Assembly: GCA_947495685.1 (NCBI GenBank)
Contig: CANLZY010000001.1
Location: forward strand, 62,001 to 126,000
Origin: an uncultured Tropicimonas sp.
GTDB lineage: Bacteria; Pseudomonadota; Alphaproteobacteria; Rhodobacterales; Rhodobacteraceae
Length of the DNA: 64,000 bases
Direction of reading: 5' to 3'
The translations under genes and the position numbers were made by a program. The notes beneath the pieces are model-generated. The model had not been told where the DNA came from and made no database searches. It saw nothing but the letters and a program-made list of their open reading frames with translations. Below are positions 11,175 through 64,000 of the stretch, one piece after another (the stretch's first letter is position 1; each line of letters opens with the position of its first letter).

Positions 11175-12315
11175 TGACGGTCACCTGGTTGTTCCTGATC
11201 TGGCCCACGGCGAGGCCACGTTGATTGGTGCCGTCCGGCAGCAGGCGGAAGATACCGCTCACCCCGGCAAACCCCGATCCCTGTGTCAGGGACGTACGGG
11301 TCAGGGCTGCGGATTTTTTCTGACCGACCAGCGCGCCGATTGCGGCGATGCCGTCATAGGACAATCCGGCAAGCGGATGCGGTTGGCTGCCAAAGGCGGC
11401 GGCGTAGCGGTTGTTGAAATTGGCGCTCAGCCCCGGGTCGGGCAGGGCCAGCCAGGCGCCCTGAAGGCCGGGCTGGGTCAGGGCCTCGGACGGAATGTCC
11501 AGGCGGGCCAGGCCGATGAACTGACTCGTCGTGGTCGAGACGCCGTTCTCGGGCAGCAACTGGGCCAGGAACGGCATCGCGCCAGCGTTGTCCGAGGTGA
11601 AGAAGACGGAATTGGCACCGGTGGACTGCACCTGGGCGGCGATCTGCGGAACCGCAGCGACCAGCCCTTGCTGGGACAGCTCGAACGAGGCATTGCCCGC
11701 CATGCTGGTGCGACCGTTTCCGGCGATGGCTCGTGCAATGGCGTCGCGACCGACCTCTTCTGCGGTCGAACGGGCGTTCACGACAAAGATGTTGCCCTTT
11801 CCCTGGGCCCCGGCGTAGCCAACCAACCGGCTGGCCGTGTTGTCGAACGTGTTGCCCAGCACAAAGACGTTCCCGCCGGCGATGGCGGGGTTGTTGGAGA
11901 ACGACAGCACGTTCAGGCCACGGTTGGCTACGGCCAGTCCGGCGGCGTTGGCGGCACCGGAATACAGCGGACCGACCAGGATCTTGGCACCTTCGTCGGC
12001 CGCCTTTGTCGCGGCGGCGGCCGCACCTCCGGCATTGCCACCGGTGGGATAGACCCTAAGGTCGATCTGCACACCTTCGAGATCCGCAATGGCCATGCGC
12101 GCGGCGTTTTCAAGATTGCGCGAAACCACGGCGTCGCCCTGGCTGCCGGAGCTTCCCGGTACCAGCAAGGCCACTGGAACGGGCGCGCCCGCGTCGATCT
12201 TGGGGCCGCCGCTTCCACCGGAGACCGGAACGTCACAAGCTGACAAAAGCAGGGCGGCGGCGAGAGCAAGGCCGCGGCCCGCAAACGTACGGGGAATTCT
12301 AAATGCAGAAAACAT
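11134..12315 (-). CDS. LpoA-like lipoprotein, penicillin-binding protein activator
   Basis: 393-residue lipoprotein: signal peptide with lipobox LLLSAC (Cys about residue 27), then a type I periplasmic-binding fold (Leu/Ile/Val-binding-like; PVALLVPGSSGSQGDAVVSRNLENAARMA is its first strand and helix). In proteobacteria this family (LppC/LpoA) stimulates class A penicillin-binding proteins. Genomic position opposite rsmI and yraN is typical of the family. The C-terminal end overlaps glnD, suggesting lpoA-glnD-murJ form one transcript. The alphaproteobacterial members lack the N-terminal TPR of E. coli LpoA, so the activator role is by analogy. Confidence 0.85.
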   Translation of the reverse strand: MFSAFRIPRTFAGRGLALAAALLLSACDVPVSGGSGGPKIDAGAPVPVALLVPGSSGSQGDAVVSRNLENAARMAIADLEGVQIDLRVYPTGGNAGGAAAAATKAADEGAKILVGPLYSGAANAAGLAVANRGLNVLSFSNNPAIAGGNVFVLGNTFDNTASRLVGYAGAQGKGNIFVVNARSTAEEVGRDAIARAIAGNGRTSMAGNASFELSQQGLVAAVPQIAAQVQSTGANSVFFTSDNAGAMPFLAQLLPENGVSTTTSQFIGLARLDIPSEALTQPGLQGAWLALPDPGLSANFNNRYAAAFGSQPHPLAGLSYDGIAAIGALVGQKKSAALTRTSLTQGSGFAGVSGIFRLLPDGTNQRGLAVGQIRNNQVTVIDPAPRSFGGFGF

Positions 12316-46398: not shown

Positions 46399-46598
46399 AG
46401 AGTCCGCGAATCGATTAATCGGTGCAGGAGAAATGCCGCAGCAGGGCTTGCCAATTTTATGCTGAATTTTGAATGTGATCGGTCGAATGCCGCATTGACC
46501 CTTTGCGACAATCGGCAGAAGAACGGCTCAGTCGGCCCCTTGTCCGGGGTCAGGGCCCGCCCGACGGGGCGGACGCAATCCCGCTGAGGAACACAAAG

Positions 46599-48380
46599 AT
46601 GAAACTTCGCTCGCAACGTTGGTTTGACAATCCCGAAAACCCGGGGATGACGGCGCTCTATCTTGAACGTTATCTGAACTACGGGATCACGCGGGAAGAA
46701 TTGCAGTCCGGCAAGCCGATCATCGGGATTGCGCAGACTGGCAGCGACCTCAGCCCCTGCAACCGGCACCATATCGAACTGGCCAAGCGGGTGCGCGACG
46801 GGATCATTGCCGCGGGCGGCATCTGCATGGAATTCCCGGTGCATCCGATCCAGGAAACCGGCAAGCGACCGACGGCAGCGCTGGATCGCAACCTGGCGTA
46901 TCTGGGGCTCGTCGAGTGCCTGTATGGCTATCCGCTGGATGGGGTCGTGCTGACCATTGGTTGTGACAAGACCACGCCGGCGATGCTGATGGCTGCGGCC
47001 ACGGTCGACATCCCGGCCATCGCGCTCAGCGTCGGACCGATGCTGAACGGCTGGCACAAGGGCGAGCGCGCGGGCTCGGGCACCGCGATCTGGCTGGCAC
47101 GGCAAAAGATGGCCAAGGGCGAGATCGACTATGACGAGTTCATGGATATCGCCGCCGATTCCGCCCCGTCCGTTGGCTATTGCAACACGATGGGCACCGC
47201 CTCGACGATGAATTCCCTGGCAGAGGCGCTTGGCATGCAATTGCCGGGGTCTGCGTCCATTCCGGCACCCTACCGCGAACGGGGCCAGATCTCTTACGAG
47301 ACCGGTCGGCGGATCGTCGAGATGGTGAACGAAGACCTGAAGCCGTCCGATGTCATGACCCGCGCGGCCTTCGAGAACGCGGTTGTGGTGAACTCTGCCA
47401 TCGGTGGCTCGACCAACGCACCGATCCACCTGAATGCCATTGCCCGCCATCTGGGTCTGGAACTGTCGAACGACGACTGGCAAGCGGTGGGACACCAGAT
47501 TCCGCTGCTGTGCAACGTCCAGCCGGCCGGTGAATACCTGAGCGAAGATTTCCATCGCGCCGGCGGCATCCCGGCGGTCTTTGGCGAACTGATGGGGGCC
47601 GGCGTCCTGCCACACCCCGAGGCCGTCACCGTGTCGGGCAAGGCCGTGTCGGATATCTATGCCAAGGCCGCGATCCAGAACACCGACGTGATCCGACCCT
47701 TCAACGACCCGCTGAAGCCCGCTGCCGGCTTCATCAACCTGCGGGGCAACCTGTTCGACAGCGCGATCATGAAGACCAGCGTGATCTCGGAGGACTTCCG
47801 CGCTCGCTATCTGTCCAATCCGGACGATATGGAAGCCTTCGAGGGCCGCGCCATCGTCTTTGAAGGGCCAGAGGATTACCACGACCGGATCGACGAGGCT
47901 GCGCTGGAAATCGACGAAAACTGCATCCTGGTGGTCCGCGGAACGGGTCCGATCGGGTATCCTGGCGGGGCCGAGGTGGTGAACATGCAACCCCCGGCGG
48001 CGCTGCTGAAGCGAGGCATCGATGCGCTTCCCTGCATCGGCGATGGACGCCAATCCGGCACATCGGGAAGCCCGTCGATCCTGAACGCCGCCCCGGAGGC
48101 CGCCGCCATGGGCGGGCTGGCGCTGGTACAGACCGGCGACCGCATCCGGGTGGACCTGAACAAGGGCACCGCCAACCTTCTGATCCCGGAGGCTGACCTG
48201 GCTGCCCGTCGGGCGGCACTTGAGGGCGCTGGCGGCTTCCCGTTCGCCGACCACCAGACACCGTGGCAAGAAATCCAGCGTGGCATTGTCGACCAGTTCG
48301 ACAAGGGCATGACGCTGAAGCCGGCGGTGAAATACCAACGGATTGCCAAGACCAAGGGTATTCCGCGCGACAACCATTGA
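46599..48380 (+). CDS. IlvD/Edd family sugar-acid dehydratase
   Basis: 593 residues. Iron-sulfur cysteines are seen in [23 protein letters not shown] and [13 protein letters not shown]; the last pattern and the length fit the aldonate (arabonate/xylonate) branch more than branched-chain IlvD. Such enzymes remove water from pentonates or hexonates to give 2-keto-3-deoxy acids. Start at 46599 follows a GAGGA ribosome site. It is divergent from the nap operon and stands alone, followed by a clear terminator, so the substrate cannot be deduced from neighbours. Confidence 0.9.
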
Positions 48381-48389
48381 TGACGAATC

Positions 48390-48426
48390 CCGTGCCCTCG
48401 CCTGTAGGAGAATAGGGCACGGTTTT
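48390..48426 (+). terminator. Rho-independent terminator of the dehydratase gene
   Basis: CCGTGCCCT (48390-48398) and AGGGCACGG (48414-48422) pair perfectly across a 15-base loop and are followed directly by TTTT. Starts 10 bases after the stop codon. One of the few hairpins here with a T-run. Confidence 0.7.
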
Positions 48427-48520
48427 CCAGAATTCGGCACGGTTTCCGATTTTTGACGCCGTAACCTGACCCGAACAGGGGCGGATGTTTCCGCCCCGCC
48501 GGTGTCAGGGAGCGCGCCCG

Positions 48521-49681
48521 ATGCAGTTCGGATTGTCGCAAGAACAGGAGATGATCGTCTCCACCGTCCGCAGTTTCGTCGAAAACGAGATCTACCCGCA
48601 TGAAACGGCGGTAGAGCGCAGCGGGCAGGTTCCGCCGGAATTTGGCGAAGCGATCAAGGCCAAGACCCTCGAACTGGGTTTCTACGCCTGCAATTTCCCC
48701 GAAGAGGTCGGCGGTGCCGGTCTGAGCCACATGGATTTCTGCCTGGTCGAACGCGAACTTGGTCGTGGCTCCATGGCGTTGACGCATTTCTTTGGCCGCC
48801 CCCAGAACATCCTGATGGCGTGCGAGGGCGCGCAGCGCGAGCGGTACCTGCTGCCGGCGGTGCGGGGCGAGAAAATGGACGCGCTCGCCATGACGGAACC
48901 CGACGCTGGATCGGATGTGCGCGGCATGAAATGTACCGCCGTCTGCGATGGCGGCGACTGGGTCATCAGTGGCTCAAAGCACTTCATCTCTGGTGCCGAG
49001 CACGCTGATTTCTTTATCGTTTTCGTGGCGACGGGAGTCGATGAAACACCCAAGGGTCCAAAAAAGCGGATCACCTGTTTCCTGGTGGACCGCGGCACGC
49101 CGGGGTTCGAGGTGCGCGATGGTTACCGGTCAGTCAGCCATCGGGGCTACAAGAACTACGTTCTGGATTTTGACCAATGCCGCCTGCCGGATGCGCAGGT
49201 TCTGGGCGAGGTCGATGGCGGTTTCGCGGTCATGAACGAATGGCTCTATGCCACGCGGCTGACAGTTGCGGCCATGGCCGTCGGACGCGCACGCCGCTGT
49301 TTCGACTTTGCGCTGAACTACGCCGCCGAGCGCAAGCAGTTCGGTCAGGCCATCGGCAAATTCCAGGGGATCGGGTTCCAGATTGCCGACATGGTGACCG
49401 AGATCGACGCGGCCGACTGGCTGACACTGGCGGGGGCGTGGCGGCTGGATCAGGGACTTCCGGCCAACCGCGAGATCGCTTCCGCCAAGCTCTTTGCGAC
49501 CGAGATGCTGGCACGGGTGACCGATACGACTCTCCAGATCTTTGGCGGGATGGGGTTGATGGACGATTTTCCCATCGAACGGTTCTGGCGGGATGCGCGG
49601 GTCGAACGGATCTGGGATGGCACCTCCGAAATTCAGCGCCACATTATCAGCCGCGACCTGCTGCGGCCGCTGGGCGCCTGA
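48521..49681 (+). CDS. Acyl-CoA dehydrogenase, first gene of a carnitine-like cassette
   Basis: 386 residues. The FAD/substrate region AMTEPDAGSDVRGMKC, CaiA/ACAD C-terminal QIFGGMGLMDDFPIERFWRDAR and RIWDGTSEIQRHIISR are clear. Where most homologues have the catalytic Glu in (Y)EGTSEI, this one has Asp366. The following genes encode an acyl-CoA synthetase and a CaiD-like hydratase, so its substrate may be a carnitine-derived or other short branched acyl-CoA. Start at 48521 behind AGGGAG. Confidence 0.9.
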   Translation: MQFGLSQEQEMIVSTVRSFVENEIYPHETAVERSGQVPPEFGEAIKAKTLELGFYACNFPEEVGGAGLSHMDFCLVERELGRGSMALTHFFGRPQNILMACEGAQRERYLLPAVRGEKMDALAMTEPDAGSDVRGMKCTAVCDGGDWVISGSKHFISGAEHADFFIVFVATGVDETPKGPKKRITCFLVDRGTPGFEVRDGYRSVSHRGYKNYVLDFDQCRLPDAQVLGEVDGGFAVMNEWLYATRLTVAAMAVGRARRCFDFALNYAAERKQFGQAIGKFQGIGFQIADMVTEIDAADWLTLAGAWRLDQGLPANREIASAKLFATEMLARVTDTTLQIFGGMGLMDDFPIERFWRDARVERIWDGTSEIQRHIISRDLLRPLGA

Positions 49682-49687
49682 AAGATC

Positions 49688-49707
49688 ATGCCTCCGGCGG
49701 GGATATT
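49688..49707 (+). repeat. Dispersed Rhodobacteraceae-type intergenic motif
   Basis: ATGCCTCCGGCGGGGATATT just after the acyl-CoA dehydrogenase gene. I recall similar CCTCCGGCGGGGATATT blocks downstream of genes in many roseobacter genomes; only this copy was noticed here. The half-palindromic CCTCCGGCGGGG can form a short stem. The rest of the 191-bp gap to the next gene holds nothing else I can name. Confidence 0.35.
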
Positions 49708-49872
49708 CCCAGACAGAACAGCCGCTGCCACGCAGGTTTTGGCCACGAGGCCGGGGGCTGGATGGTTGCTATGCGACCGGTGCCCCCCCGGTCTTTGCCC
49801 AGCGGCGAGTTGTTCCGACGCCGACGTGCCACCGGTTTTTGATCGTCCGAGCCAATGCGAGGGCAGAACGTG

Positions 49873-51870
49873 ATGAACGGTTTCGACCGCCTTCTGCAGC
49901 CCCGATCCATTGCCGTGTTTGGCTCGAGTTGGGCGGAGAACGTCATCGCCCAATGCCGCAAGATGGGGTTCGCTGGCGAGATCTGGGCCGTGCATCCCCG
50001 GCACGCCGAGGTGGGCGGGCATCGGGCCTATGCCTCGCTCGCGGATCTTCCCGGGGCGCCGGATGCGAGCTTTGTCGGCGTTAACCCATTGGCGACACTT
50101 GAGATCGTTGGGCAATTGTCCGAGATGCAGGCCGGTGGTGCCATCTGTTTCGCGTCCGGGTGGCGCGAGGCGGGGCAGGACGCATTGCAGCGGAAGTTGG
50201 TCCAGGCGGCCAATGGAATGCCCATTCTGGGGCCAAATTGTTATGGCATGATCAACTACCTCGATGGGGCGATCATCTGGCCGGATCAGCATGGTGGCCG
50301 CCGGGTGGACCGTGGCGTGGCGGTCATCTCGCAAAGTTCGAACATCGCGATCAATATCACGATGCAGGCGCGCGGGTTGCCCATTGCCTATGTCGCCTGC
50401 CTTGGAAACGCGGCGCAGATCGGGTTGGCGGATCTGGCAGCAGCCCTGTTGGCCGACGACCGGGTGACCGCCCTGGGGATCTATTGCGAGGGGATCGACG
50501 ATCCCGCAGCCTTGGCAGCGGTGGCACAGGCTGCGCGGCTGGCCGGGCGGGGCGTTGTTGCGATCAAGGCGGGCAAGACGGCGGCCGGTGCGTCGGCGGC
50601 GGCGTCGCACACCGCATCCCTGGCCGGATCGGCCGCCGCATCCTCGGCATTCTTGCGCCAGGCCGGCATTGCGGAGGTCCTGACCATCGCCGAACTGGTC
50701 GAAACCCTGAACGTCTATCACGCGCATGGCCCTCTGCGCGGCGCGCGGTTCTGCTCGTTGTCTTGCTCCGGCGGAGAGGCAACGCTGGTGGCCGACCTGA
50801 CGGAGCGCTCGGTTCTGGATTTCCCTGCGCCTTCAAGCGCACAGTCCGAGTGTCTTAAGACCTTGCTAGGCCCCATGGTGACGATCAGCAATCCGTTGGA
50901 TTACCAGACCTATATCTGGGGCGACACAGACAGGACGACACAGGTGTTCACGGCGATGCTGGAGGGCTACGACGCCGGGCTCTTCGTGATCGACCCGCCG
51001 AGGCCGGACCGGTGCGACCCGGCGTCATTCCTGCATTCGTTGCAGGCGATAGAGGCTGCGGCGCGGGCGACAGGCAAACCGGCATTTCCGGTAGCGACAC
51101 TGCCGGAAAATTTTGACGAGGACCTCGCCATTGCGATGATCGATCGCGGGATTGCGCCGTTGTCGGGGCTCGAAACCGCATTGACGGCGCTGGCAGCTGC
51201 CACAACTCCGGCCGGTGGGCCGACCTGGCGTCCGTGGCCTGCACTGTCGGAAGCAGAGACGGCACTGATGTTGGAAAGTGACGCCAAGGCGATACTGGAA
51301 GCTGCTGGCATGTCCATCCCGGTCGGGATTGCCGCCGACACGTTGGAAGGCCTGGCAGAGGACATCGGGCAGCTTGTACCGCCGTTTGCCCTGAAGGGGC
51401 TTGGGTTCGCACACAAGAGCGAAGCCGGAGCCGTGCGGTTGGGATTGATCGACCTGTGCGGGCAGGTCCCGATGCCGGGCGCCCAGGGGTACCTTGCCGA
51501 AGAGATGGTCACCGGCGGTGTTGCCGAAATGCTGATCGGTGTCCGACGGGATCCGGTTTATGGGGCCACGGTGACGTTGGGGTTGGGCGGTGTGACGGCG
51601 GAGCTGTTGGCCGATACCGTCACCTTGGTCCTGCCGGTATCGGCCAATGACGTCGAGGTTGCCTTGGGGTGGTTGCGCCTTGCGCCGCTGTTGCGCGGAT
51701 ACCGCGGGCGACCGGTGGCCGATGAAGGCGCGATCATCGATGCGGTTCTGATGTTGCAGACGCTGCTCGAAACCCAGCCTGACATCGCAGAGATCGAAAT
51801 CAACCCGCTGATCGTGCGGGACACCGGCGCCATCGCGGTGGACGCCCTGATACGAAAGGACATCGGATGA
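49873..51870 (+). CDS. ADP-forming-type acyl-CoA synthetase (acetate--CoA ligase family)
   Basis: 665 residues. Domains in order: CoA-binding Rossmann (FDRLLQPRSIAVFGSS), two succinyl-CoA-ligase-like domains with the phospho-His region in ASHTASLAGSAAAS (about 245), and a C-terminal ATP-grasp lobe (about 460-665; PFALKGLGFAHKSEAGAVRLGL). It should activate a carboxylic acid by CoA with ATP to ADP plus phosphate, reversible. Placed between an acyl-CoA dehydrogenase and caiD it takes the place held by the AMP-forming CaiC in E. coli. Start at 49873 with GAGGG upstream. Overlaps caiD by 4 bp. Confidence 0.88.
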   Translation: MNGFDRLLQPRSIAVFGSSWAENVIAQCRKMGFAGEIWAVHPRHAEVGGHRAYASLADLPGAPDASFVGVNPLATLEIVGQLSEMQAGGAICFASGWREAGQDALQRKLVQAANGMPILGPNCYGMINYLDGAIIWPDQHGGRRVDRGVAVISQSSNIAINITMQARGLPIAYVACLGNAAQIGLADLAAALLADDRVTALGIYCEGIDDPAALAAVAQAARLAGRGVVAIKAGKTAAGASAAASHTASLAGSAAASSAFLRQAGIAEVLTIAELVETLNVYHAHGPLRGARFCSLSCSGGEATLVADLTERSVLDFPAPSSAQSECLKTLLGPMVTISNPLDYQTYIWGDTDRTTQVFTAMLEGYDAGLFVIDPPRPDRCDPASFLHSLQAIEAAARATGKPAFPVATLPENFDEDLAIAMIDRGIAPLSGLETALTALAAATTPAGGPTWRPWPALSEAETALMLESDAKAILEAAGMSIPVGIAADTLEGLAEDIGQLVPPFALKGLGFAHKSEAGAVRLGLIDLCGQVPMPGAQGYLAEEMVTGGVAEMLIGVRRDPVYGATVTLGLGGVTAELLADTVTLVLPVSANDVEVALGWLRLAPLLRGYRGRPVADEGAIIDAVLMLQTLLETQPDIAEIEINPLIVRDTGAIAVDALIRKDIG

Positions 51871-52652
51871 CCGACGGACCCATTCGCACCCGCCAGGAGG
51901 GCGGCATTCTGGAGGTCACGCTGGATCGCCCCAAGGCCAATGCTATCGATCTGGCGACAAGCCGCATCATGGGCGAGACCTTTCGCGGGTTTCGCGACGA
52001 CGACAGCCTGCGGGTGGCGATCCTGCGCGCCGAGGGGGACAGGTTTTTCTGCCCTGGCTGGGATCTGAAGGCCGCCGCCGACGGGGATGCGGTGGATGGT
52101 GATTATGGCGTCGGGGGCTTTGGCGGATTGCAAGAACTGCCCCGCCTGAACAAGCCCGTTATCTGCGCCGTCAATGGCATCTGTTGCGGGGGCGGTCTGG
52201 AACTGGCGTTGAGCTGCGACCTGATCCTTGCATCGGAGACGGCGACCTTTGCCTTGCCGGAAATCCGCTCGGGCACCGTCGCCGATGCGGCCTCGATCAA
52301 GCTGCCCAAGCGCATCCCGTATCACGTCGCCATGGACCTGTTGCTGACAGGGCGATGGTTCGATGCTGCAGAGGCCAAGACCTGGGGATTGGTGAAGGAT
52401 ATCACCACGCCGGAGGGGCTGTTGCCAGCGGCCTGGGACCTCGCGCGGTTGCTCGAAGCGGGGCCGCCGCTGGTCTATGCGGCAATCAAGGAGGTTGTAC
52501 GCGAAGCGGAGGACATGAAGTTCCAGGACGCGTTGAACCGGATCACCAAGAGCCAGTTCGCGACGGTTGAGCGGCTGTATTCCTCCGAAGACCAACTCGA
52601 AGGCGCTCGCGCTTTTGCCGAAAAACGTGATCCCGTCTGGAGGGGGCGCTAG
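51867..52652 (+). CDS. caiD: CaiD-like carnitinyl-CoA dehydratase
   Basis: 261 residues, same length as E. coli CaiD. ILEVTLDRPKANAIDLATS, FFCPGWDLKAAADGDA, FALPEIRSG and the C-terminal EGARAFAEKRDPVWRGR closely follow CaiD. The crotonase oxyanion glycines are in GICCGGGLELALS. It would interconvert carnitinyl-CoA and crotonobetainyl-CoA or a similar substrate. The start lies in the stop codon of the synthetase gene. No CaiB CoA-transferase is near. Ends 8 bp from the opposing glycosyltransferase. Confidence 0.88.
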   Translation: MTDGPIRTRQEGGILEVTLDRPKANAIDLATSRIMGETFRGFRDDDSLRVAILRAEGDRFFCPGWDLKAAADGDAVDGDYGVGGFGGLQELPRLNKPVICAVNGICCGGGLELALSCDLILASETATFALPEIRSGTVADAASIKLPKRIPYHVAMDLLLTGRWFDAAEAKTWGLVKDITTPEGLLPAAWDLARLLEAGPPLVYAAIKEVVREAEDMKFQDALNRITKSQFATVERLYSSEDQLEGARAFAEKRDPVWRGR

Positions 52653-53846: not shown

Positions 53847-54545
53847 TCAGCGGGCGCCGTTTCCGGTCAGGACGACCCGTACCGTCTGAAACACGATCTT
53901 GATGTCGCCCCAGAAAGACTGGCGACGGACATAGGCCACATCCATTCGAACGCGTTCGGCAAAGGTGGTGTTGCTGCGACCAGTCACCTGCCAAGCGCCA
54001 GTGACGCCGGGGCGGACCGATTTATACTCTGCCAGGTATTCGCGATAGAAGTGCGCTTCGTCCGCCACGATGGGCCGGGGGCCGACAACCGACATTTCTC
54101 CCCGCAGGACGTTGAGGAACTGGGGCAGCTCATCCAGGCTTGATTTGCGCAGGAATCGGCCCAGGCAGGAGACCCGAGGATCGTTGGTCAGCTTGCGGGT
54201 TGTCTGCCATTCGGCCCGTGCGACCGGGTCGTTTTCCAACAACTCTTCCAGCTGGCGATCGGCATCGACGGCCATTGTCCGGAACTTGAGGCAGCCAAAA
54301 GGCTTGCCGGCATGACCCATGCGCTGGTGCCGAAAGAACACCGGGCCACCCTCGGTGATGACCAAGGCCAACGCGACGAGTACCATGAACGGCAAGACGA
54401 ATGTCAAAGCCGCCAGAGAGAACACGACGTCAAAGACTCTCTTTGACGTCGATATGTCCGGGAACGCCGTTTTCGCTGCATGATTAGGACCATACACAAC
54501 ACCGGATTCCATCAGGCCAAGGCCTACTTCGCTTTGATTATTCAT
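53847..54545 (-). CDS. ExoY-like undecaprenyl-phosphate sugar transferase
   Basis: 232 residues. One membrane helix (VFDVVFSLAALTFVLPFMVLVALALV), then FGCLKFRTMAVDADRQ, LRKSSLDELPQFLNVL, MSVVGPRPIV and RPGVTGAWQVTGR. It begins a polysaccharide repeat by loading a sugar phosphate on the lipid carrier. Paralogue of the gene at 17245-17919. It is divergent from the flippase gene, with an AT-rich 257-bp gap containing a 19-bp palindrome. Confidence 0.92.
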   Translation of the reverse strand: MNNQSEVGLGLMESGVVYGPNHAAKTAFPDISTSKRVFDVVFSLAALTFVLPFMVLVALALVITEGGPVFFRHQRMGHAGKPFGCLKFRTMAVDADRQLEELLENDPVARAEWQTTRKLTNDPRVSCLGRFLRKSSLDELPQFLNVLRGEMSVVGPRPIVADEAHFYREYLAEYKSVRPGVTGAWQVTGRSNTTFAERVRMDVAYVRRQSFWGDIKIVFQTVRVVLTGNGAR

Positions 54546-54802: not shown

Positions 54803-56293
54803 GTGGAAATCTCAGGAAAAAAAGCGCGTCGAAACAAGGGCCGCGGCTCCGGTGCGATCGGGGGTGGGTTGTGGACGATGGCCGAACGGCTGACGTCACA
54901 ATCCAGTCAACTTGTCATTTTTGTGGTCGCGGCGAGGATTCTCGGACCGGCGGATTTTGGCGTATTCGCGCTCGTTGCGGCCTGCGCGATTCTGTTGATG
55001 CGGCTCGCGGAGGGGGGGTGGTCCCCATACATCCTGTCCTATGCAGGCGATTCGACCGTGCCGCGACAGGTTTTGCTGGTGGCGATCATCAGCGGCGCGA
55101 TGGCGGCAGTCGCAGGCGGGCTTGTCGGCCTGACGTTGCCCTTCGTTGGGTTTTCCACCCAGATCGTCACTTTGGTGGTGCTGTTCTCGGGATGGGTCCT
55201 GCTGGCGGTCACCTCATCGGCGCAAAAGGCTATCCTGATCTGGCAAGGGCGTTTGCGGGCCGCGGCGGTGTCGGAGATCTTCGGCGAGATCGCCGGACTG
55301 GGCGTTGCGCTCATGGCATTGTACGGGGGGCAGGGCGTGCTGTCGCTGGTCTATGGTCGGCTTGCCTTTCAGACGGTGCAACTGATCGTGAGCTTTTCGA
55401 TCACCCGGCTCAGCCCGCTGCCGGGCATGGAGCGGACGGCCTTTCGCGAGATGATGCGGGTCTCGGGGCAATTCTTCATCTCTCGCATGATCTACAATTT
55501 CCGGGTTTATGCGGCGACTTTCATGGTTGGTGCGTTCCTCGGGCCGGCGGCGGTCGGGTTTTACCGCGCTGCCGAGCGTCTGACCGGGGCCATGGGCGAG
55601 GTCGTGGGGGTGCCGACGCAGACGCTGGCCTGGAACCTGTTTCGTCAGGCCCGAGAGGATGACAACGGCGGCACCGGAAAGTTCCAGGCGGTCGCCAATA
55701 CGTTCTTCCCGGTTCTGTTGGCCGCAGCGGTGCCCCTGTTTGTCTGGTTGAGCATCATGGGAGAGGACCTGATCCGCGGCCTGTTGGGCGAAGAGTGGCT
55801 TCCGACCTTGCCGGTGCTCGCGGTGCTGGTCTTTGCGCGCGCGATCAACCTGGTGGGCTTTCTGACAGAGCCGATCCTGTCGCTGGCCGGTCAGATCCAT
55901 CGGTTGCCCGCGATCTCTGTCCTGTACCTGCTGGTCACCATTGTGGCCGTTCTGGTCTCCGCGCCCTTCGGTCTGATCCCGCTGGCCGTGGCGCAGGTCG
56001 GGGTCTCGTCGGTTGTGGCCGGCACGACATTCTGGCTGCTTCATCGGCATGCGGGTCTGGAGTGGGGGGCAATCCTGCGTCGCTTGCCGCGCATCGTGCT
56101 TGCGATCGTGATCGGCGCAGGCACGATGGTGTTGCTGCGCAACAGCCCCATGACGGCGTCGTGGCCGCCGCTCTTGCGGGCTTTCGGGCTGATCCTCCCG
56201 GTGGTGATCGTGTATGCGGGTGCACTTGTGGCGTTGGAGCCGACCGTGCGCGGGCTGGTCATGGGGCGGCTGCGGGCCGCGCGGGGCAATTGA
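54803..56293 (+). CDS. Wzx-type polysaccharide flippase (MOP superfamily)
   Basis: 496 residues, about 12-14 hydrophobic helices. The N-terminus GAIGGGLWTMAERLTSQSSQ followed by ARILGPADFGVFALV is typical of lipopolysaccharide/exopolysaccharide flippases that move lipid-linked repeat units to the periplasm. Start is GTG at 54803 with GAGAGGA about 10 bases upstream. It leads a plus-strand run with the methyltransferase-like gene 16 bp later. Confidence 0.9.
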   Translation: MEISGKKARRNKGRGSGAIGGGLWTMAERLTSQSSQLVIFVVAARILGPADFGVFALVAACAILLMRLAEGGWSPYILSYAGDSTVPRQVLLVAIISGAMAAVAGGLVGLTLPFVGFSTQIVTLVVLFSGWVLLAVTSSAQKAILIWQGRLRAAAVSEIFGEIAGLGVALMALYGGQGVLSLVYGRLAFQTVQLIVSFSITRLSPLPGMERTAFREMMRVSGQFFISRMIYNFRVYAATFMVGAFLGPAAVGFYRAAERLTGAMGEVVGVPTQTLAWNLFRQAREDDNGGTGKFQAVANTFFPVLLAAAVPLFVWLSIMGEDLIRGLLGEEWLPTLPVLAVLVFARAINLVGFLTEPILSLAGQIHRLPAISVLYLLVTIVAVLVSAPFGLIPLAVAQVGVSSVVAGTTFWLLHRHAGLEWGAILRRLPRIVLAIVIGAGTMVLLRNSPMTASWPPLLRAFGLILPVVIVYAGALVALEPTVRGLVMGRLRAARGN

Positions 56294-56309
56294 AGCACAG
56301 GAGGCCGAC

Positions 56310-57113
56310 ATGGGTGTGATCTCGAAACTGCGCAAGGCGGGCGGCAAGGCGACCATGCCCCTGACGGCGGGTCTGGCACACGCGAGACGTCTGGCCGGGC
56401 GCCCGGCCAGGTTCCACGGCACCTGGCCCACAGTCGAGGCGGCGTTGGCAAGTCTCCCGACCGAGGCCCGCGGCGGCTATGACACCGAGGGTGTCGCCGA
56501 CATCTCGTTCGAGCAGATGGCACGAGTGGTGCCGTGGGATTATCCGGTGCTGTTCTGGCTGAGAACGCTTTTACCCGATGGCGGTAGCGTGCTGGATGCG
56601 GGCGGACATATGGGCACCAAGTACCTGGCCTTTCGATCCCTGATGCCGCTGGAAGCAATCACCTGGACGGTATGCGACCTGCCGGCGATCGTCCGCGCGG
56701 CCCGTTCGGCCCAGGCCGCCGGGAAATTGCCTGTCGAAATCGGCTTCAGCGACCAGCCGTCACAAACATCGCCCGCTGACGTGCTGCTTGCCTCCGGGTT
56801 GCTGCAATACCTCGACACGCCGCTGTCGGCGTATGTCGATGCTCTTCCGGCGCGGCCCGATTTCCTGTTGCTCAACAAGGTGGCCTTGCGGGATGGACCA
56901 CAGGTGGTGACACTGGAGCAGATCGGCCCGGCACGTGTGCCCTACCAGATCCGGTCCCGACAGGAGTTCCTCCGCGAGGTGGGGACGATGGGATATGTCG
57001 TGCGGGACACCTGGCGGATCCCGGAATTGAACCATGTCATTCCGTCTCACCCCTGGTTGGGGTCTTCCGCAAGCGAAGGGTTTCTTTTGGCAAAGGCCGA
57101 CGATTCGCAGTGA
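56310..57113 (+). CDS. Putative methyltransferase (TIGR04325-like)
   Basis: 267 residues. SVLDAGGHMGTKYLAFRSLM (about 93-112) looks like a SAM-binding motif I, followed by TVCDLPAIV and LLASGLLQYLDTP, as in the LIC12133-like putative methyltransferases found in O-antigen and capsule loci. Start at 56310 behind AGGAGG. It could methylate a sugar of the polysaccharide or a product of the large synthase downstream; the sequence does not decide. Confidence 0.72.
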   Translation: MGVISKLRKAGGKATMPLTAGLAHARRLAGRPARFHGTWPTVEAALASLPTEARGGYDTEGVADISFEQMARVVPWDYPVLFWLRTLLPDGGSVLDAGGHMGTKYLAFRSLMPLEAITWTVCDLPAIVRAARSAQAAGKLPVEIGFSDQPSQTSPADVLLASGLLQYLDTPLSAYVDALPARPDFLLLNKVALRDGPQVVTLEQIGPARVPYQIRSRQEFLREVGTMGYVVRDTWRIPELNHVIPSHPWLGSSASEGFLLAKADDSQ

Positions 57114-57510: not shown

Positions 57511-60500
57511 ATGACTTTGGGTGACCGGACGCCAAACCGGCCTGATGCTGCCCGTGATCGGCCAGCACCCGGGTTGGTTGGGGTGTTCCGCCAGCACTGC
57601 AAGGCGTCGCCGGATGCGTTGGCTGTCATGGCTGGCGCACGTTGCATGTCCTATGCAGACCTGGACCATGCGGCGCGGCGCGTGGCTGGATGCCTGCAGG
57701 CAGCGGGTGTCCGGCGTGGTGACATGGTCGGCCTCTATTCTGCCCGCTCCGTTGATGCCGTCATCGCGACGCTTGGGATCCTCTATGCCGGTGCGGGCTA
57801 CGTGCCACTTGATCCGACCCATGCGCCCGAACAACTGGCGTTCATCGCGGAGGACCTGTCCCTTGCGACGGTGCTTGTCGCGCCAGACTGGGCGACGGAT
57901 GCCGACAGGGATCTCGGGGTGGATGTCACCCGCATCCCGCTGGCGGAGGCGATCGGGTTTGCGGCAACCGGCGCAATCGTGTCGGATTGTGGTGGCGAGG
58001 ACGTCGCCTATGTCATGTATACGTCCGGCACCACGGGGCGGCCCAAGGGCGTGGCCGTGCCGCATCGTGCCATTCTGGCCTATGGCCATGCGCAACCCTT
58101 CATGCAGATGCGCGCCGACGACGTGGTGCTGCATTTCCTGACCATTGCCTGCGATGGGGCGACGTTCGAGATCTGGGCGGCCCTGTTGAACGGCGCGAGC
58201 ATCGCCGTGGTCGAGGCTCAGGCCCCGTCGCTGGACGATATCGCCTCCGCGATGATCCGCCATTCGGTGTCGGCTGTGGGGTGGTATGCCGGCATCCATC
58301 ACATGATGATCGATCAACGGCTCGAAGCCTTCGCGACGGTGCGCCTGAACATTGCGGGCGGCGATGTGATGTCGCCTGCCCACGCGGCGCGGCTGTTGGA
58401 GGCCTGGCCTGATATCCTGCTGATCAACTCCTATGGCCCGACCGAAGCGACGGTCGGCGCGCTCTATTGCCATGTCACACCCGAGGTGCTGGACGGTGGT
58501 CCGATTCCGATCGGAAGGGCCTATGACCGATATGACGCCTTTGTTGTCGACGAAGCCCTGAGAGTTTTGCCCGAAGGCGAAACCGGTCAGTTGGTGTTGG
58601 CGGGGGGCGGTGTCGCGCTTGGGTATCACAACCGCCCCGACCGGACCGCGACCAGCTTTGTACCTGACCCGCGGCCCGGGAAGGGGGGCACGGTCTACCT
58701 GACCGGGGATCTCGCTCGCCAGTCCGAGGATGGCAGTTTTGCCTTTGCAGGGCGCGTGGACCGCCAGGTCAAGCTGGGCGGTCGGCGGATCGAACTGGAC
58801 GGCGTCGAACATGTCCTGCGCACCCAACCCGGCGTTCGTGGGGCGGCTGTGGTGCTGCTGACGGCAGAGCGGGGCGACCGCCGCATCGCCGCCGCGTTGC
58901 TGGCCGAAGACACCGACGGGTCCGGGTCCGACCTGATCGACAGGGTCCTCAAGGGTGCGGCCGAGCAACTTCACCCGATGACCTTGCCCCGTCAGGTCCG
59001 AGTCCTGCCGCGCTTTCCGCTGACCTCGGCGGGAAAGGTGGATCGACGCGCGGTGGCTGAGCTGTTGCAGGAGGATCCCGACGTCGCGCCCGATACGTCT
59101 GTCGATGCTGCGGACTCCCGGGATGTCCGCGCGCTGATTGCCGATGTCTGGGACAAGCTTCTGGGCTGCGGGCCGGTGTCCGACGACACGACCTTCTTTG
59201 ATGCCGGCGGCAACTCATTGCAGCTGATGGAGGCCCATGCGGCGCTGGAGACCGCGCTCGGAATGCGGTTCCCGATCACGCAGTTGTTCGACACGCCCCG
59301 GTTGGGGCAGCTTGCCCGGGTTCTGGGCGCGACAGCCCCGGCGGAGACAGCAGCAAAGGCCCGGTCGGTCCCGTCTGCCGACACGAGTGACCTTCCTGCT
59401 GGAGCGATTGCAATTGTCGGCATGGCTGCCCGCCTTCCCGGGTCTGCCTCTGTGGAGGACTTCTGGGAGCACCTTCGGCGTGGCGACAACCTGATCGACC
59501 GCTTTTCCGTCGAGGAGTTGGAAGACAATCACGACGCGGCGACCCGCGCCGATCCCGCCTTTGTGCCGGCCCGGTCGATCCTGCCCGATGCCGACATGTT
59601 CGATGCCCGGTTCTTTGGGGTGCTGCCGCGGGAGGCCGAACAGATGGACCCGCAGGCACGCGTGTTCCTGGAGCTGTGCCAACAAGCGCTGGAAGACGCC
59701 GGGATCGATCCGGCCCGCGCGCCCGGTGCCATTGGCGTCTGGGCGGGCAGCTCGCCGAGCACCTATCTGCTGGCCAACCTGCTGTCAGGTGGGGACGACC
59801 TGCGCGACTATACCTCCACCTACCAATCCGGCGACTATCACCGCCTGACCGGCAACAGCACCGACAGCCTCGCCACGCGGGTTGCCTACAAGCTGGATCT
59901 CAAGGGACCGGCGATGTCGGTGGGCACGGCGTGCTCGACCTCGCTGACAGCCATTTCCCAGGCCGTTCAGGCCCTGCGGTCCGGTGGCGCCGACGTGGCC
60001 ATGGCCGGCGGCGTCTCGATCACCTTCCCGCAGAAACGTGGATACCTGGCATTGGAGGGGGGGATGGCGTCGCCGCACGGCCTGTGCCGCCCCTTCGACG
60101 CTCAGGCCGACGGAACCGTGTTCGGCCATGGCGCAGGTGTGGTTGTCCTGCGTCGGCTCGAAGATGCGTTGGCCGATGGCGATCCGATCCATGCGGTCAT
60201 TCGCGGCGTCGGGCTCAATAACGATGGCGCCGACAAGATCTCGTACACGGCGCCGTCGGTTGACGGGCAGGCCGGTGCAATCCGCATGGCGCACAGCGAT
60301 GCCGGGCTGGACCCGACCACGATCAGTTATGTCGAATGCCACGGCACCGCGACCCCGCTGGGGGACCCGGTGGAGCTGATGGGGCTGGCACGGGCCTTTG
60401 GGCCGGGGGCCGAGGGCCGCTGTGCCATCGGATCGGTCAAGGGCAACATCGGCCACCTGGATGCCGCCGCCGGGGTGGTCAGCGTGATCAAGACGGCGAT

Positions 60501-63500
60501 GATGCTGACACGGGCCGAGATTCCGCCAGTCGCCAACTTCCGCGCGCTCAACCCCCGGATCGATCTCGATGGCACGCCGTTCCGCGTTGCCGACCGGCTG
60601 ACCGACTGGGCCTGCAACGGCCCGCGCCGGGCCGGGATCAGCTCGTTCGGGGTTGGTGGCACGAACGCCCACCTGGTGCTGGAACAGGCACCTTCCGGTC
60701 GCGAGGCTGCCTCTATCACGACGCCGCAAGCCTTGCCGTTGGCAGCAAAATCCGCCGAGGCGCTGGCCGAGATGACGACGATGCTGGCCGACAGGCTCAA
60801 GCGCGATGATGCGCCGGATCTGGCAGAGGTGGCGCTGACGCTGCAACGGGGACGCAGCGAGTTCCCGTGGCGGCTGGCAGTTGCGGCCTCCGATCCCGCC
60901 ACCGCGATCGCGAAACTGCGCCGGGCCCGGCCGCCTGCAACCAAGGCGCCAAGCACTGCGCCCGAGGTCGTGTTCATGTTCCCCGGGCAGGGCTCGCAGT
61001 ATCCCGGAATGGGTAGCGGCCTTTACGCCGCCGAACCGGCTTATGCCCGCTGGATCGATCGGGGCGCCGAAATCCTGCGACCGATCATTGGTCAGGACCT
61101 GACCGCGCTGCTGACCCGCGCCGACCTGTCGGATGACGAGGCCGCCCGGGCATTGCGCGACACCCGATTGACCCAGCCGGCGCTTTTCATCGTGCAATAC
61201 GGTTGTGCCCGGGTGTGGATGGACCGCGGCATCACCCCCGCGGCGATGGTCGGGCATTCGGTCGGGGAATTCACCGCCGCCGCATTGGCCGGCGTGATGG
61301 ATTTCGAGACCGGCCTGCGGATCATCGCCGCGCGTGGGCAGTTGATGCAGGACCAACCCGGCGGCGCAATGTTGTCGGTGCGTGCCCCGCTGGAGGCACT
61401 GGAGCCGCACCTGTTCGCCGGCGTCGAGCTGGCCGCGATGAACGCGCCAAAGGCGCAGGTTGTCGCCGGGCCGTTCGACGCGATCGAGCAGCTGGAGCTA
61501 CGCCTGTCCGCTGCCGGCATCGCCGCAAAGCGGCTGCACACCTCGCACGCCTTCCACTCGGCCATGATGGACCCGGTGGTATCGGCGCTCGAGACAGAGA
61601 TTTCAGGCGTGGCCCTTGCCGCGCCGACCATTCCGCTGGTGTCTTCGGTCACCGGCGACTGGTTGACGGACAAAGACGCTCGCAGCCCCGCCTTCTGGGC
61701 GGCGCAGGCGCGGGCGTCAGTAAACTTCCAGGCTGCTCTGCAGGCGGTCTGTGAAGAAGCGTCGCGTGTGCTGGTTGAAATGGGGGCCGGTGGCACCCTT
61801 TCGGCCTTTGCCACGCAAACGCTTGGACGCGGAGGTTTTGGCGGGGTTTTTCAGTCACTGACGGACCACACCCAAACCGAATGTGATGTCGATGCCATGG
61901 CCTCCGCGTTCGCCAATCTCTGGGCTGCTGGCGTGCCCGTGGACTGGTCCCGATTGGGACCGGCAGCCACGAAACGCGTGTCGGTTCCCGGCACGGCGTT
62001 CCAGCGCAAACGCTATTGGGTCGAGCCGCCGCAATCGGATGCGGCTCGACCTGTTTCCATTCCGGCGGCGGCTTCGGTGGCCGCTGCACCCGTTGCGTAC
62101 GAGGAACCGATGACAGAAACGAGCCCAACCCCACAGGCAGAGCGCGGCCCACGGTTGACGCAGGAATTGCTGGCGATGCTCTCGGATCTGTCGGGCGAGG
62201 ATCTGGGCGCGGCGGATGCCGGGGTTCCGTTCCTCGAACTGGGGTTTGATTCGCTGTTCATGGGGCAGGTTAGCCAGGCGATCGGCAAGACGTACGGCGT
62301 CGAGGTCACCTTCCGAACGCTGTTGGCCGAGATGCCCAGCGTCGAGCTCTTGTCGGCGCATCTGGACAATGTCTTGCCGCCGGAAGAGGCCGCCCCGGTG
62401 CACGTCGCCACTCCGGCACCTGCGGCCGCGCCAACCGCCGTGGGGGCACCAGTCCCTGTTGCCGGGGCCACTCCTGCGCCTGTCGCGCCGTTGGCTGGCG
62501 ATATCGGGGCCGTGATGCAAGCCCAGATGCAGGCCATGCAATCCTTGTTTTCGGAGCAGTTGCGAGTACTCGGCGGCGGCAGCCCAGTGGTCGCCCCGGT
62601 GCTGCCGCAACCGGCGCCGGTTCAACCCGCCCCTGCGCCAATGCCTGCTTCGACGGTTGCCACGGCCGGTACGTCGATGTCGGCGCCCCCCACTGGAGGC
62701 TTCAAGACCGGTCGCGGGCCGGATGTCTCGGGCGGGGCGCTGGATGCAGCCCAGGCAGCGTTCGTCGCGGACCTCGCCCGGCGGTATTCCGACCGCTTCG
62801 CCAAGTCCAAGGCCTATACTGCCGACCATCGCGGCGCGCTGGCCGATCCGCGCACGGTGTCGGGGTTCCGGGCGGAGTGGAAGGAACTCACCTTCCCCGT
62901 CGTCGTCGAAGAGGCCCAAGGGGCCTATTTCAAGGATGCAGATGGCAACCGCCTGATCGACCTGGTGAACGGGTTCGGGCAGACGGCGTTCGGCCATTCG
63001 CCCGATTTCGTCTCCAGGGCCGTGGCCGACCAGATGACGCGCGGCTATCCCATCGGCCCGCAGAGCGATCTGGCAGGGCCTGTCGCGGACCGCTTTGCCC
63101 GGTTGACGGGGCACGAGCGGGTCACCTTCTGCAACACGGGGTCCGAGGCGGTGATGGCTGCGATGCGGCTGGCGCGCACGGTAACGGGGCGCGAAAAGGT
63201 TGTTGTCTTCAGCGGCGACTACCACGGCCAGTTCGACGAGGTTCTGGTCAAGGGCAAATCGCGCGGCGGCGCGCCGGCGGCGTTGCCCATTGCGCCGGGG
63301 ATCCCGCGCTCGGGCCTGACCAACATGACCGTGCTGGCCTACGGCGCGCCAGAATCGCTGGACTGGCTGCGGGAGAACGCACACGACATCGCGGCGGTGC
63401 TGGTCGAGGCGGTGCAAAGCCGCCACCCGAACCTGCGTCCGGCAGATTTCGTGCGCGAGGTGCGCAGGATCACCGCGCAATCGGGCACCGCGCTGGTGAT

Positions 63501-64000
63501 GGACGAGGTCGTCACCGGGTTCCGAACCCACATGCGCGGCATGCAGGGCGTCTGGGACATCAAGGCCGACATGGCCACCTATGGCAAGGTCGTCGGTGGC
63601 GGCATGCCCATCGGTGTGCTGGCGGGCGATGCGCGTTTCATGGATGCGCTGGATGGCGGCACATGGCAGTTTGGCGACGATAGCAAGCCCGAGATTGCGC
63701 CGACCTTCTTCGCCGGCACGTTCGTGCGGCATCCGTTGGTTCTGGCGGCTGTTGACGCCGTTCTGAGACATCTGGAAACCGACGGCGAAGCGTTGTTTTC
63801 CGATACCGCTGCCCGTGCGGCTCGTCTGGCCGATGATCTGCGGGCAGCGCTGGCCCGCCGCGGATTGCCCGACCTGGTCGAGAGCTATTCCAGCTGGTTC
63901 GTACTGAATGTCACCCAGCGCGACCCGCGCGCCACCTTGCTCTATGCGCTGATGCGCATGGAGGGGGTGCATGTGCTCGACGGGTTCTGCGGCTTCCTGA
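57511..64000 (+). CDS. NRPS/PKS hybrid synthase A-PCP-KS-AT-ACP-aminotransferase (3' end beyond window)
   Basis: Open without a stop for 2163 codons from the first in-frame ATG to the window edge. Order: adenylation (about 20-515; YVMYTSGTTG at 167, NSYGPTEA near 308, YLTGDLA at 396, Lys509 in AGKVDRR); carrier with Ser569 (GGNSL); ketosynthase (631-1060; Cys808, His944, His982); acyltransferase (1151-1450; FPGQGSQYPGMG, Ser1250 in GHSVGE, HAFH at 1346 as in malonyl-specific enzymes); carrier with Ser1581 (GFDSL); Ala/Pro linker; class III aminotransferase from about 1790 (Asp1998, PLP Lys2026). No condensation domain precedes A, so it looks like a starting module; no ketoreductase is present. 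It should make a beta-amino product. Confidence 0.9.
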   Translation, partial: MTLGDRTPNRPDAARDRPAPGLVGVFRQHCKASPDALAVMAGARCMSYADLDHAARRVAGCLQAAGVRRGDMVGLYSARSVDAVIATLGILYAGAGYVPLDPTHAPEQLAFIAEDLSLATVLVAPDWATDADRDLGVDVTRIPLAEAIGFAATGAIVSDCGGEDVAYVMYTSGTTGRPKGVAVPHRAILAYGHAQPFMQMRADDVVLHFLTIACDGATFEIWAALLNGASIAVVEAQAPSLDDIASAMIRHSVSAVGWYAGIHHMMIDQRLEAFATVRLNIAGGDVMSPAHAARLLEAWPDILLINSYGPTEATVGALYCHVTPEVLDGGPIPIGRAYDRYDAFVVDEALRVLPEGETGQLVLAGGGVALGYHNRPDRTATSFVPDPRPGKGGTVYLTGDLARQSEDGSFAFAGRVDRQVKLGGRRIELDGVEHVLRTQPGVRGAAVVLLTAERGDRRIAAALLAEDTDGSGSDLIDRVLKGAAEQLHPMTLPRQVRVLPRFPLTSAGKVDRRAVAELLQEDPDVAPDTSVDAADSRDVRALIADVWDKLLGCGPVSDDTTFFDAGGNSLQLMEAHAALETALGMRFPITQLFDTPRLGQLARVLGATAPAETAAKARSVPSADTSDLPAGAIAIVGMAARLPGSASVEDFWEHLRRGDNLIDRFSVEELEDNHDAATRADPAFVPARSILPDADMFDARFFGVLPREAEQMDPQARVFLELCQQALEDAGIDPARAPGAIGVWAGSSPSTYLLANLLSGGDDLRDYTSTYQSGDYHRLTGNSTDSLATRVAYKLDLKGPAMSVGTACSTSLTAISQAVQALRSGGADVAMAGGVSITFPQKRGYLALEGGMASPHGLCRPFDAQADGTVFGHGAGVVVLRRLEDALADGDPIHAVIRGVGLNNDGADKISYTAPSVDGQAGAIRMAHSDAGLDPTTISYVECHGTATPLGDPVELMGLARAFGPGAEGRCAIGSVKGNIGHLDAAAGVVSVIKTAMMLTRAEIPPVANFRALNPRIDLDGTPFRVADRLTDWACNGPRRAGISSFGVGGTNAHLVLEQAPSGREAASITTPQALPLAAKSAEALAEMTTMLADRLKRDDAPDLAEVALTLQRGRSEFPWRLAVAASDPATAIAKLRRARPPATKAPSTAPEVVFMFPGQGSQYPGMGSGLYAAEPAYARWIDRGAEILRPIIGQDLTALLTRADLSDDEAARALRDTRLTQPALFIVQYGCARVWMDRGITPAAMVGHSVGEFTAAALAGVMDFETGLRIIAARGQLMQDQPGGAMLSVRAPLEALEPHLFAGVELAAMNAPKAQVVAGPFDAIEQLELRLSAAGIAAKRLHTSHAFHSAMMDPVVSALETEISGVALAAPTIPLVSSVTGDWLTDKDARSPAFWAAQARASVNFQAALQAVCEEASRVLVEMGAGGTLSAFATQTLGRGGFGGVFQSLTDHTQTECDVDAMASAFANLWAAGVPVDWSRLGPAATKRVSVPGTAFQRKRYWVEPPQSDAARPVSIPAAASVAAAPVAYEEPMTETSPTPQAERGPRLTQELLAMLSDLSGEDLGAADAGVPFLELGFDSLFMGQVSQAIGKTYGVEVTFRTLLAEMPSVELLSAHLDNVLPPEEAAPVHVATPAPAAAPTAVGAPVPVAGATPAPVAPLAGDIGAVMQAQMQAMQSLFSEQLRVLGGGSPVVAPVLPQPAPVQPAPAPMPASTVATAGTSMSAPPTGGFKTGRGPDVSGGALDAAQAAFVADLARRYSDRFAKSKAYTADHRGALADPRTVSGFRAEWKELTFPVVVEEAQGAYFKDADGNRLIDLVNGFGQTAFGHSPDFVSRAVADQMTRGYPIGPQSDLAGPVADRFARLTGHERVTFCNTGSEAVMAAMRLARTVTGREKVVVFSGDYHGQFDEVLVKGKSRGGAPAALPIAPGIPRSGLTNMTVLAYGAPESLDWLRENAHDIAAVLVEAVQSRHPNLRPADFVREVRRITAQSGTALVMDEVVTGFRTHMRGMQGVWDIKADMATYGKVVGGGMPIGVLAGDARFMDALDGGTWQFGDDSKPEIAPTFFAGTFVRHPLVLAAVDAVLRHLETDGEALFSDTAARAARLADDLRAALARRGLPDLVESYSSWFVLNVTQRDPRATLLYALMRMEGVHVLDGFCGFL

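Follow-up and report, generated by a model that had tools for sequence, protein, structure and literature searches.

Synthases of the iturin type, which include those of iturin, mycosubtilin (subunit MycA) and bacillomycin (BamA), start with an acyl ligase and give beta-amino fatty acid products, and they carry a block of ketosynthase (KS), acyltransferase (AT), acyl carrier protein (ACP) and aminotransferase (AMT) domains. The same block occurs in the subject of this analysis, a hybrid of nonribosomal peptide synthetase (NRPS) and polyketide synthase (PKS) encoded by an uncultured Tropicimonas sp. (Rhodobacteraceae; assembly GCA_947495685.1, contig CANLZY010000001.1) in a stretch of 64,000 nucleotides, positions 62,001 to 126,000 of the forward strand, hereafter the window. 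Unlike the iturin-type enzymes, the window's synthase has an amino-acid adenylation (A) domain in place of the acyl ligase; bacillomycin D BamA was among the matches of a plasmid search, at 46.5% identity. A second likeness is offered by the microcystin enzymes McyG and McyE (NdaC and NdaF for nodularin), in which, according to the accessible part of the source, a start of A domain and peptidyl carrier protein (PCP) leads into PKS steps, an AMT gives a beta-amino acid and an NRPS module follows (PMC2885083). McyG, however, takes phenylpropanoids as its starters, which several malonyl units then extend, whereas the window's synthase has an amino-acid pocket, a single extension module and polysaccharide genes around it. 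These surroundings resemble Wzx/Wzy- and XrtA-type exopolysaccharide loci, in that sugar transferase, flippase, chain-length/tyrosine kinase, export and pyruvyl transferase genes occur around the synthase, not all of them everywhere. We know of no modular NRPS-PKS line that is a recognised part of loci of either type. PMC3102044, in its accessible part, discusses its NRPS loci in one section and its polysaccharide loci in another, and in the literature searched, where subscription journals were thinly covered, no description of the synthase family or of an NRPS-PKS link to polysaccharide loci was recognised. Database records already name the synthase gene a hybrid NRPS/PKS; what is new in the hybrid NRPS-PKS-aminotransferase kind is the polysaccharide linkage, a reduced last module and a moved thioesterase (TE) histidine.

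The synthase gene is a single open frame from 57511 to the window's edge at 64000, and the genome sequence past that edge continues the frame without a stop to 67299, ruling out a frameshift or stop right after 64000. By Pfam, the 3262-residue protein has the order A-PCP-KS-AT-ACP-AMT-condensation (C)-A-PCP, with E-values of 2.6e-143 for AMP-binding, 1.7e-69 for ketoacyl-synt, 2e-46 for Acyl_transf_1 and 1.2e-46 for Aminotran_3; these scores lie far above the cut-off, and chance is therefore excluded. The Cys-His-His of the KS, the serines of AT and ACP and the lysine of the AMT are all found in one chain with the NRPS modules, and the synthase is, as predicted from its sequence, an intact hybrid NRPS/cis-AT PKS with an aminotransferase. 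A preliminary description of this DNA had recognised one frame with an NRPS loading module, a PKS extension module and an aminotransferase, and the domains it named are all present in 57511-64000; likewise, the seven catalytic residues it listed, which are those given in the Table, occupy these positions within the expected motifs. Its claim of an amino-acid A domain, and not an acyl ligase, at the start holds as well: the first A domain (A1) is of the amino-acid type, and the nearest solved relative of the AMT is mycosubtilin synthase subunit A (E 5e-151). The later domains it had wished to see to the right of the window are there, as C-A-PCP in the synthase and then a partner gene with C, PCP and TE. 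Accordingly, that description lacked this C-terminal part, the partner gene and a phosphopantetheinyl transferase, all past the edge, and it also missed the polysaccharide context inside the window.

To define the spread of the architecture, 60 genomes including Tropicimonas were searched, and the AMT was found at 49-77% identity in six of the 59 others. A contig scan with seven AMT sequences, of which the best 80 loci were retained, brought the total with Tropicimonas and six relatives to 87 loci, whose domains were read by phmmer (individual loci are cited by L numbers). A KS lies upstream of the AMT in 75 of the 87, the AMT is followed by C and A in 75, and the full order of A, KS, AMT, C and A is kept in 55, while several of the remaining loci stop at contig edges. 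The arrangement had been described as different from that of iturin and mycosubtilin synthases, but it is no peculiarity of the Tropicimonas genome: a domain order unique to that genome is ruled out by its occurrence at these 55 loci. The loci belong to Rhodobacterales, rhizobia, Xanthomonadales, Burkholderiales, Acidobacteria, Verrucomicrobia, cyanobacteria and others. Among the matches listed, 28 of 47 genomes have at most two condensation-domain matches (in Tropicimonas two, both from the synthase system), and the synthase is therefore not one of many secondary-metabolite clusters in these genomes.

Linkage to polysaccharide genes was assessed in these 47 genomes (Tropicimonas, five relatives and 41 genomes of the best 80 loci). 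In at least 30 of the 47, a sugar transferase of family PF02397 is encoded no more than 30 kb from the synthase, against an expected 1.7; a 15-kb limit leaves at least 23, where 0.8 would be expected. Among the matches listed, 17 genomes have none within 30 kb, and in nine of the 30 the nearby gene is the sole copy of the genome. In at least four genomes that lack a nearby PF02397, a member of the outer-membrane export family PF02563 (Poly_export) lies within 14 kb, by distances taken by hand; at least 34 of 47 thus have one marker or the other. This closeness spans several proteobacterial orders, one verrucomicrobial genome and two acidobacterial genomes, and in seven Xanthomonadales genomes a sugar transferase and an export gene flank the synthase. 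As a control, 29 other condensation-domain clusters were taken from these genomes, and PF02397 was present within 30 kb of three (Fisher p 4e-6); the comparison is weak, as the 29 are those among the matches listed and come from ten genomes. TIGR04325, the methyltransferase family found beside the window's synthase, was detected in 31 of the 47 genomes searched, and in 18 of these it lies no more than 30 kb from the synthase. Homologs on plasmids matched in 44 records, 25 of them listed, and seven loci were inspected. Six of the seven (Jannaschia, two Rhizobium, Loktanella, Rhodobacter CZR27 and Aliiroseovarius, whose synthase is more distant) have flippase, glycosyltransferase, kinase or export genes around the synthase, though not the full set in every case; a Dyella locus also holds nucleotide-sugar enzymes and XrtA-type export genes. 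At the level of predicted genes, these comparisons establish the architecture of the synthase, its spread and its polysaccharide linkage, and they suggest that the polysaccharide coat, or its biofilm, uses an unusual amino-acid building block. In the rhizobial loci L037, L040, L112, L114 and L116, a DegT aminotransferase, a GMC oxidoreductase, a GH16 glycoside hydrolase and a GINT1-like protein adjoin the synthase.

The locus around the window's synthase has the predicted sugar transferase, Wzx-type flippase and tyrosine autokinase by which Wzx/Wzy loci are recognised (Table); the first two score above the Pfam cut-off. The flippase is 33% identical over 429 residues, and the methyltransferase 45% over 250 residues, to their counterparts in the Rhizobium lusitanum locus; the flippase-methyltransferase pair upstream of the synthase is common to both, and gene order is thus partly kept across orders. 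In the chain-length/tyrosine autokinase, Wzz and GNVR score above the Pfam cut-off and TIGR01005 below its own.

Table. Features of the synthase locus, in window numbering (position 1 is contig position 62001; coordinates past 64000 continue the same numbering).
Feature	Position	Strand	Remarks
Initiating sugar-phosphate transferase	53847..54545	-	PF02397 E 6e-66; NCBIfam exopolysaccharide (EPS)-type models below cut-off
Wzx-like polysaccharide flippase	54803..56293	+	PF13440 E 5e-28
TIGR04325-family methyltransferase	56214..57113 (start probably later than 56214)	+	TIGR04325 E 1e-47, above cut-off
Hybrid NRPS-PKS gene, part in window	57511..64000	+	whole gene ends 67299, 3262 aa
A1, loading adenylation domain	57574..59070	+	pocket code DGFGIGSVG(K)
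PCP1	59137..59322	+	Ser569
KS	59404..60540	+	Cys808, His944, His982
AT	60970..61824	+	Ser1250; HAFHS at 1346
ACP	62203..62430 (approximate limits)	+	Ser1581
AMT, class III aminotransferase domain	62848..64000 (cut by window end; true end near 64080)	+	Lys2026
Remainder of synthase past window	up to 67299	+	C1 (HHIAVDG), A2 (DILQLGMIW(K)), PCP3
Partner gene, 934 aa	67303-70107	+	C2 (HQSCFDG), adenylation remnant, PCP, TE (GICVHG)
Phosphopantetheinyl transferase	70121-70882	-	
CocE/NonD hydrolase	70882-72699	+	
Glycosyltransferase and Wzz/tyrosine autokinase	72715-76096	-	
Wzy-like membrane protein	76394-78736	-	by eye, without family match
Polysaccharide pyruvyl transferase	79629-81263	-	

The carrier-bound product can be predicted from the substrate-binding motifs, reading A1 and the second A domain (A2) against valine and glycine reference pocket codes that we take to be correct. 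A1 matches the amino-acid adenylation model TIGR01733, and Asp235 is kept in 60 of 61 readable A1 domains, as in amino-acid pockets; a valine-like code (D..W.GGTF) is present in 31 of the 61. In the window's clade, made up of 13 loci grouped around it on the AMT tree, where its place points to Rhodobacterales, the nine readable A1 codes all differ from one another and are all unlike valine, and Rhodobacterales copies outside this clade (L094, L096) can have a valine-type A1. Motifs A3, A5 and A7 are intact in these nine domains, with A4 variable; the A1 variation is therefore better read as a change of specificity than as decay. The A2 code of the window's synthase is glycine-like, and codes starting with DILQ, the glycine type, are found in 49 of 76 A2 domains (13 of 13 in the window's Rhodobacterales clade and nine of nine in rhizobia), with valine codes in nine of the 76. 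The AT carries the motifs GHSVGEF and HAFHS, which we take as a malonyl-type signature, and no KR, DH or ER match was found in the synthase by Pfam. From the established functions of these domains, the product bound to PCP3 is expected to be a beta,gamma-diaminoacyl-glycine with a side chain set by A1. Loci L094 and L096 are shorter versions in which a C-A-PCP-TE end lies within one protein; their second pockets are, on our reading, valine-like in L094 and beta-alanine-like in L096.

The partner gene begins 3 bp past the synthase stop, and its product departs in several respects from a complete canonical terminal module: only the C-terminal piece of AMP-binding is present, without an adenylation core between C and PCP, the C2 motif is HQSCFDG instead of HHxxxDG, and the histidine column of the TE holds a leucine. 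Forty-five partner proteins were gathered, of which those of L095 and L101 were left out for their other architecture and 43 were compared. The stretch of the A core measures more than 400 residues in eight partners, 93 in one and at most 22 in 34; L097 and L103 have a stretch above 400 residues, yet without an A domain call in the phmmer reading. The PCP is absent in nine of the 43, and the loss of the A core in 34 together with that of the PCP in nine agrees with transfer to an acceptor not tethered to a carrier. The second histidine of C2 is replaced in 29 of 43 partners, by glutamine in 18 of these, and the TE nucleophile is a cysteine in 39 of 43.

A further feature of the TE is the motif CVHGN, with a histidine two residues past the cysteine, which occurs in eight partners, all of the window's Rhodobacterales clade (one from a Proteobacteria metagenome-assembled genome). 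The canonical TE histidine is absent in exactly these eight and kept in 34 of the 35 others, and the cysteine and aspartate are retained in all eight. The TE of the window's lineage has thus lost its usual histidine and gained a candidate catalytic one beside the nucleophile in eight of eight members. This elbow-histidine trait maps to one or two changes on the C2-domain tree, therefore to one or two events and not eight, and to four on the AMT tree, because L031, L035 and L036 have another partner type and L033 and L034 gave no partner sequence. In L031 (17618-20530), L035 (5209-7734) and L036 (15182-17617) the partner gene lies on the opposite strand (all on the minus strand) and its TE has a canonical histidine (GxCVDG). 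Identity between the window's partner and seven clade relatives is 44-69% for the TE and 49-68% for C2, a similarity that speaks against free drift of the TE. A model of the TE from L029, one of the eight (alignment of 38), has a mean predicted local distance difference test score (pLDDT) of 92.6, and Foldseek matched it best to entries that contain NRPS/PKS thioesterases: AB3403, Pks13 and NocB. A cysteine that replaces serine in the nucleophile motif is shared with the NRPS thioesterases ObiF1 and SulM, the latter presumably with a cysteine nucleophile. In the accessible part of its description, the ObiF1 TE combines the cysteine nucleophile with a retained triad residue, His1284 (PMC6668435), whereas the window's lineage lacks the triad histidine and has the one two residues past the cysteine.

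No known product was found for the synthase family. We tentatively propose that the assembly line serves the exopolysaccharide locus and supplies a beta,gamma-diaminoacyl-glycine unit to the polysaccharide. Activated on its carrier domains by the phosphopantetheinyl transferase, the line would load an amino acid through A1-PCP1 and carry out one KS-AT-ACP extension, after which the AMT of mycosubtilin type would aminate the beta position and C1-A2-PCP3 would add glycine. The partner's C2 and Cys-thioesterase would then remove the unit from PCP3 and hand it to a small acceptor; by inference, a sugar in the repeating unit of the polysaccharide is the likeliest one. In rhizobia, such an acceptor could be an amino sugar made by the DegT aminotransferase. 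The methyltransferase would probably tailor the unit or the sugar, and the Wzx flippase would export the modified sugar after transfer. More doubtful is the broader proposition that a widespread exopolysaccharide class bears a strain-variable, aminostatine-like beta,gamma-diaminoacyl-glycine, transferred to sugar by a terminal protein without amino-acid activation, with the TE histidine of the window's lineage placed at the nucleophile elbow.

Several observations weigh against this proposal. The A1 code of the window is not known to match any assigned pocket code; 34 of the 43 partners, including that of the window, keep the PCP, and a third building block could be loaded in trans. Given the loss of the second C2 histidine in most partners and a window TE without the canonical histidine, release could be weak or dead. 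Moreover, PF02563, which is present in the loci of relatives, has four Tropicimonas matches listed and none on the synthase contig. The 13 of 47 genomes with neither PF02397 nor PF02563 within 30 kb among the matches listed also count against it, as does a Variovorax plasmid locus with TIGR04325 methyltransferases and efflux genes and without polysaccharide genes.

The latter two points would be accounted for if the line made a small, freely diffusing peptide of the aminostatine type, for instance an inhibitor of proteases or a signal in biofilms. Such a peptide would share its regulation with the polysaccharide genes, or leave the cell through the flippase, without being bound to the polysaccharide; this diffusible product is nearly as likely as the polysaccharide-bound unit. 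The complete last module C-A-PCP-TE of some homologs also favors it. N-acyl amino acid synthases of the stieleriacine type are not known to be modular lines. Their likeness to the present system lies in small amino-acid products encoded beside exopolysaccharide genes: as the accessible part of the source describes, such synthases adjoin exosortase/exopolysaccharide genes, and the stieleriacines, N-acyl tyrosines of small size, affect biofilms (PMC7293339). Being free small molecules, they differ from the proposed polysaccharide-bound unit, and with this precedent a polysaccharide neighborhood is therefore no proof of attachment. A diffusible peptide is, however, at odds with the taxonomic breadth of the polysaccharide-gene closeness, with the polysaccharide type of the flippase, and with the six plasmid loci that have polysaccharide genes, in which no drug exporter recurs next to the synthase (RND genes lie about 11 kb from it in Loktanella, and Rhodobacter CZR27 has a DMT transporter).

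It is unlikely that polysaccharide assembly needs the product as a primer, a cap or part of a carrier, a role that has been proposed for the fatty-acid/polyketide synthase-like RkpA of the rhizobial K-antigen: the placement of the synthase beside the initiating sugar transferase and flippase would suit such a function, but with no KR, DH or ER in the synthase a lipid is therefore not expected. Quite improbable is a decaying locus with the partner gene as a relic and little or no product. The lost A core, the replaced C2 histidine and the lost canonical TE histidine of the partner would agree with decay, as would an in-frame TAG in C1 of two draft homologs, whereas the window's genes are intact, and the C2-like conservation of the TE among clade relatives, its invariant cysteine and aspartate and the confident L029 fold all argue against decay. 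An iturin-like lipopeptide with a beta-amino fatty acid, to which only the AMT of the same type points, is very improbable and was dropped, as A1 is no acyl ligase but of the amino-acid type by its Asp235 and frequent valine-type codes.

If the proposed polysaccharide attachment is true, assembly-line chemistry would make part of bacterial surface polysaccharides, joining natural-product and polysaccharide biosynthesis in a way that, to our knowledge, no described system does. Many environmental and plant-associated bacteria would then carry a positively charged coat whose chemistry varies from strain to strain, and where a genome has few or no other NRPS genes, polysaccharide analysis could test what its orphan NRPS-PKS does. 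The moved thioesterase histidine, if true, would offer a useful example of a rewired active site.

The TAG codons within C1 are located at 8365-8367 (minus strand) in L025, a genome of the same family, and at 11909-11911 (plus strand) in L054, Rhodospirillales URHD0017; they represent sequencing errors or broken genes, and a common pattern is ruled out by their different positions. Elsewhere in the window, a second PF02397 sugar transferase lies at about 17335 (contig 79335), and genes for a dihydroxy-acid dehydratase, an acyl-CoA dehydrogenase, an acyl-CoA ligase and an enoyl-CoA hydratase at 46503-52652 look like an operon for the breakdown of organic acids, with no relation to the synthase.

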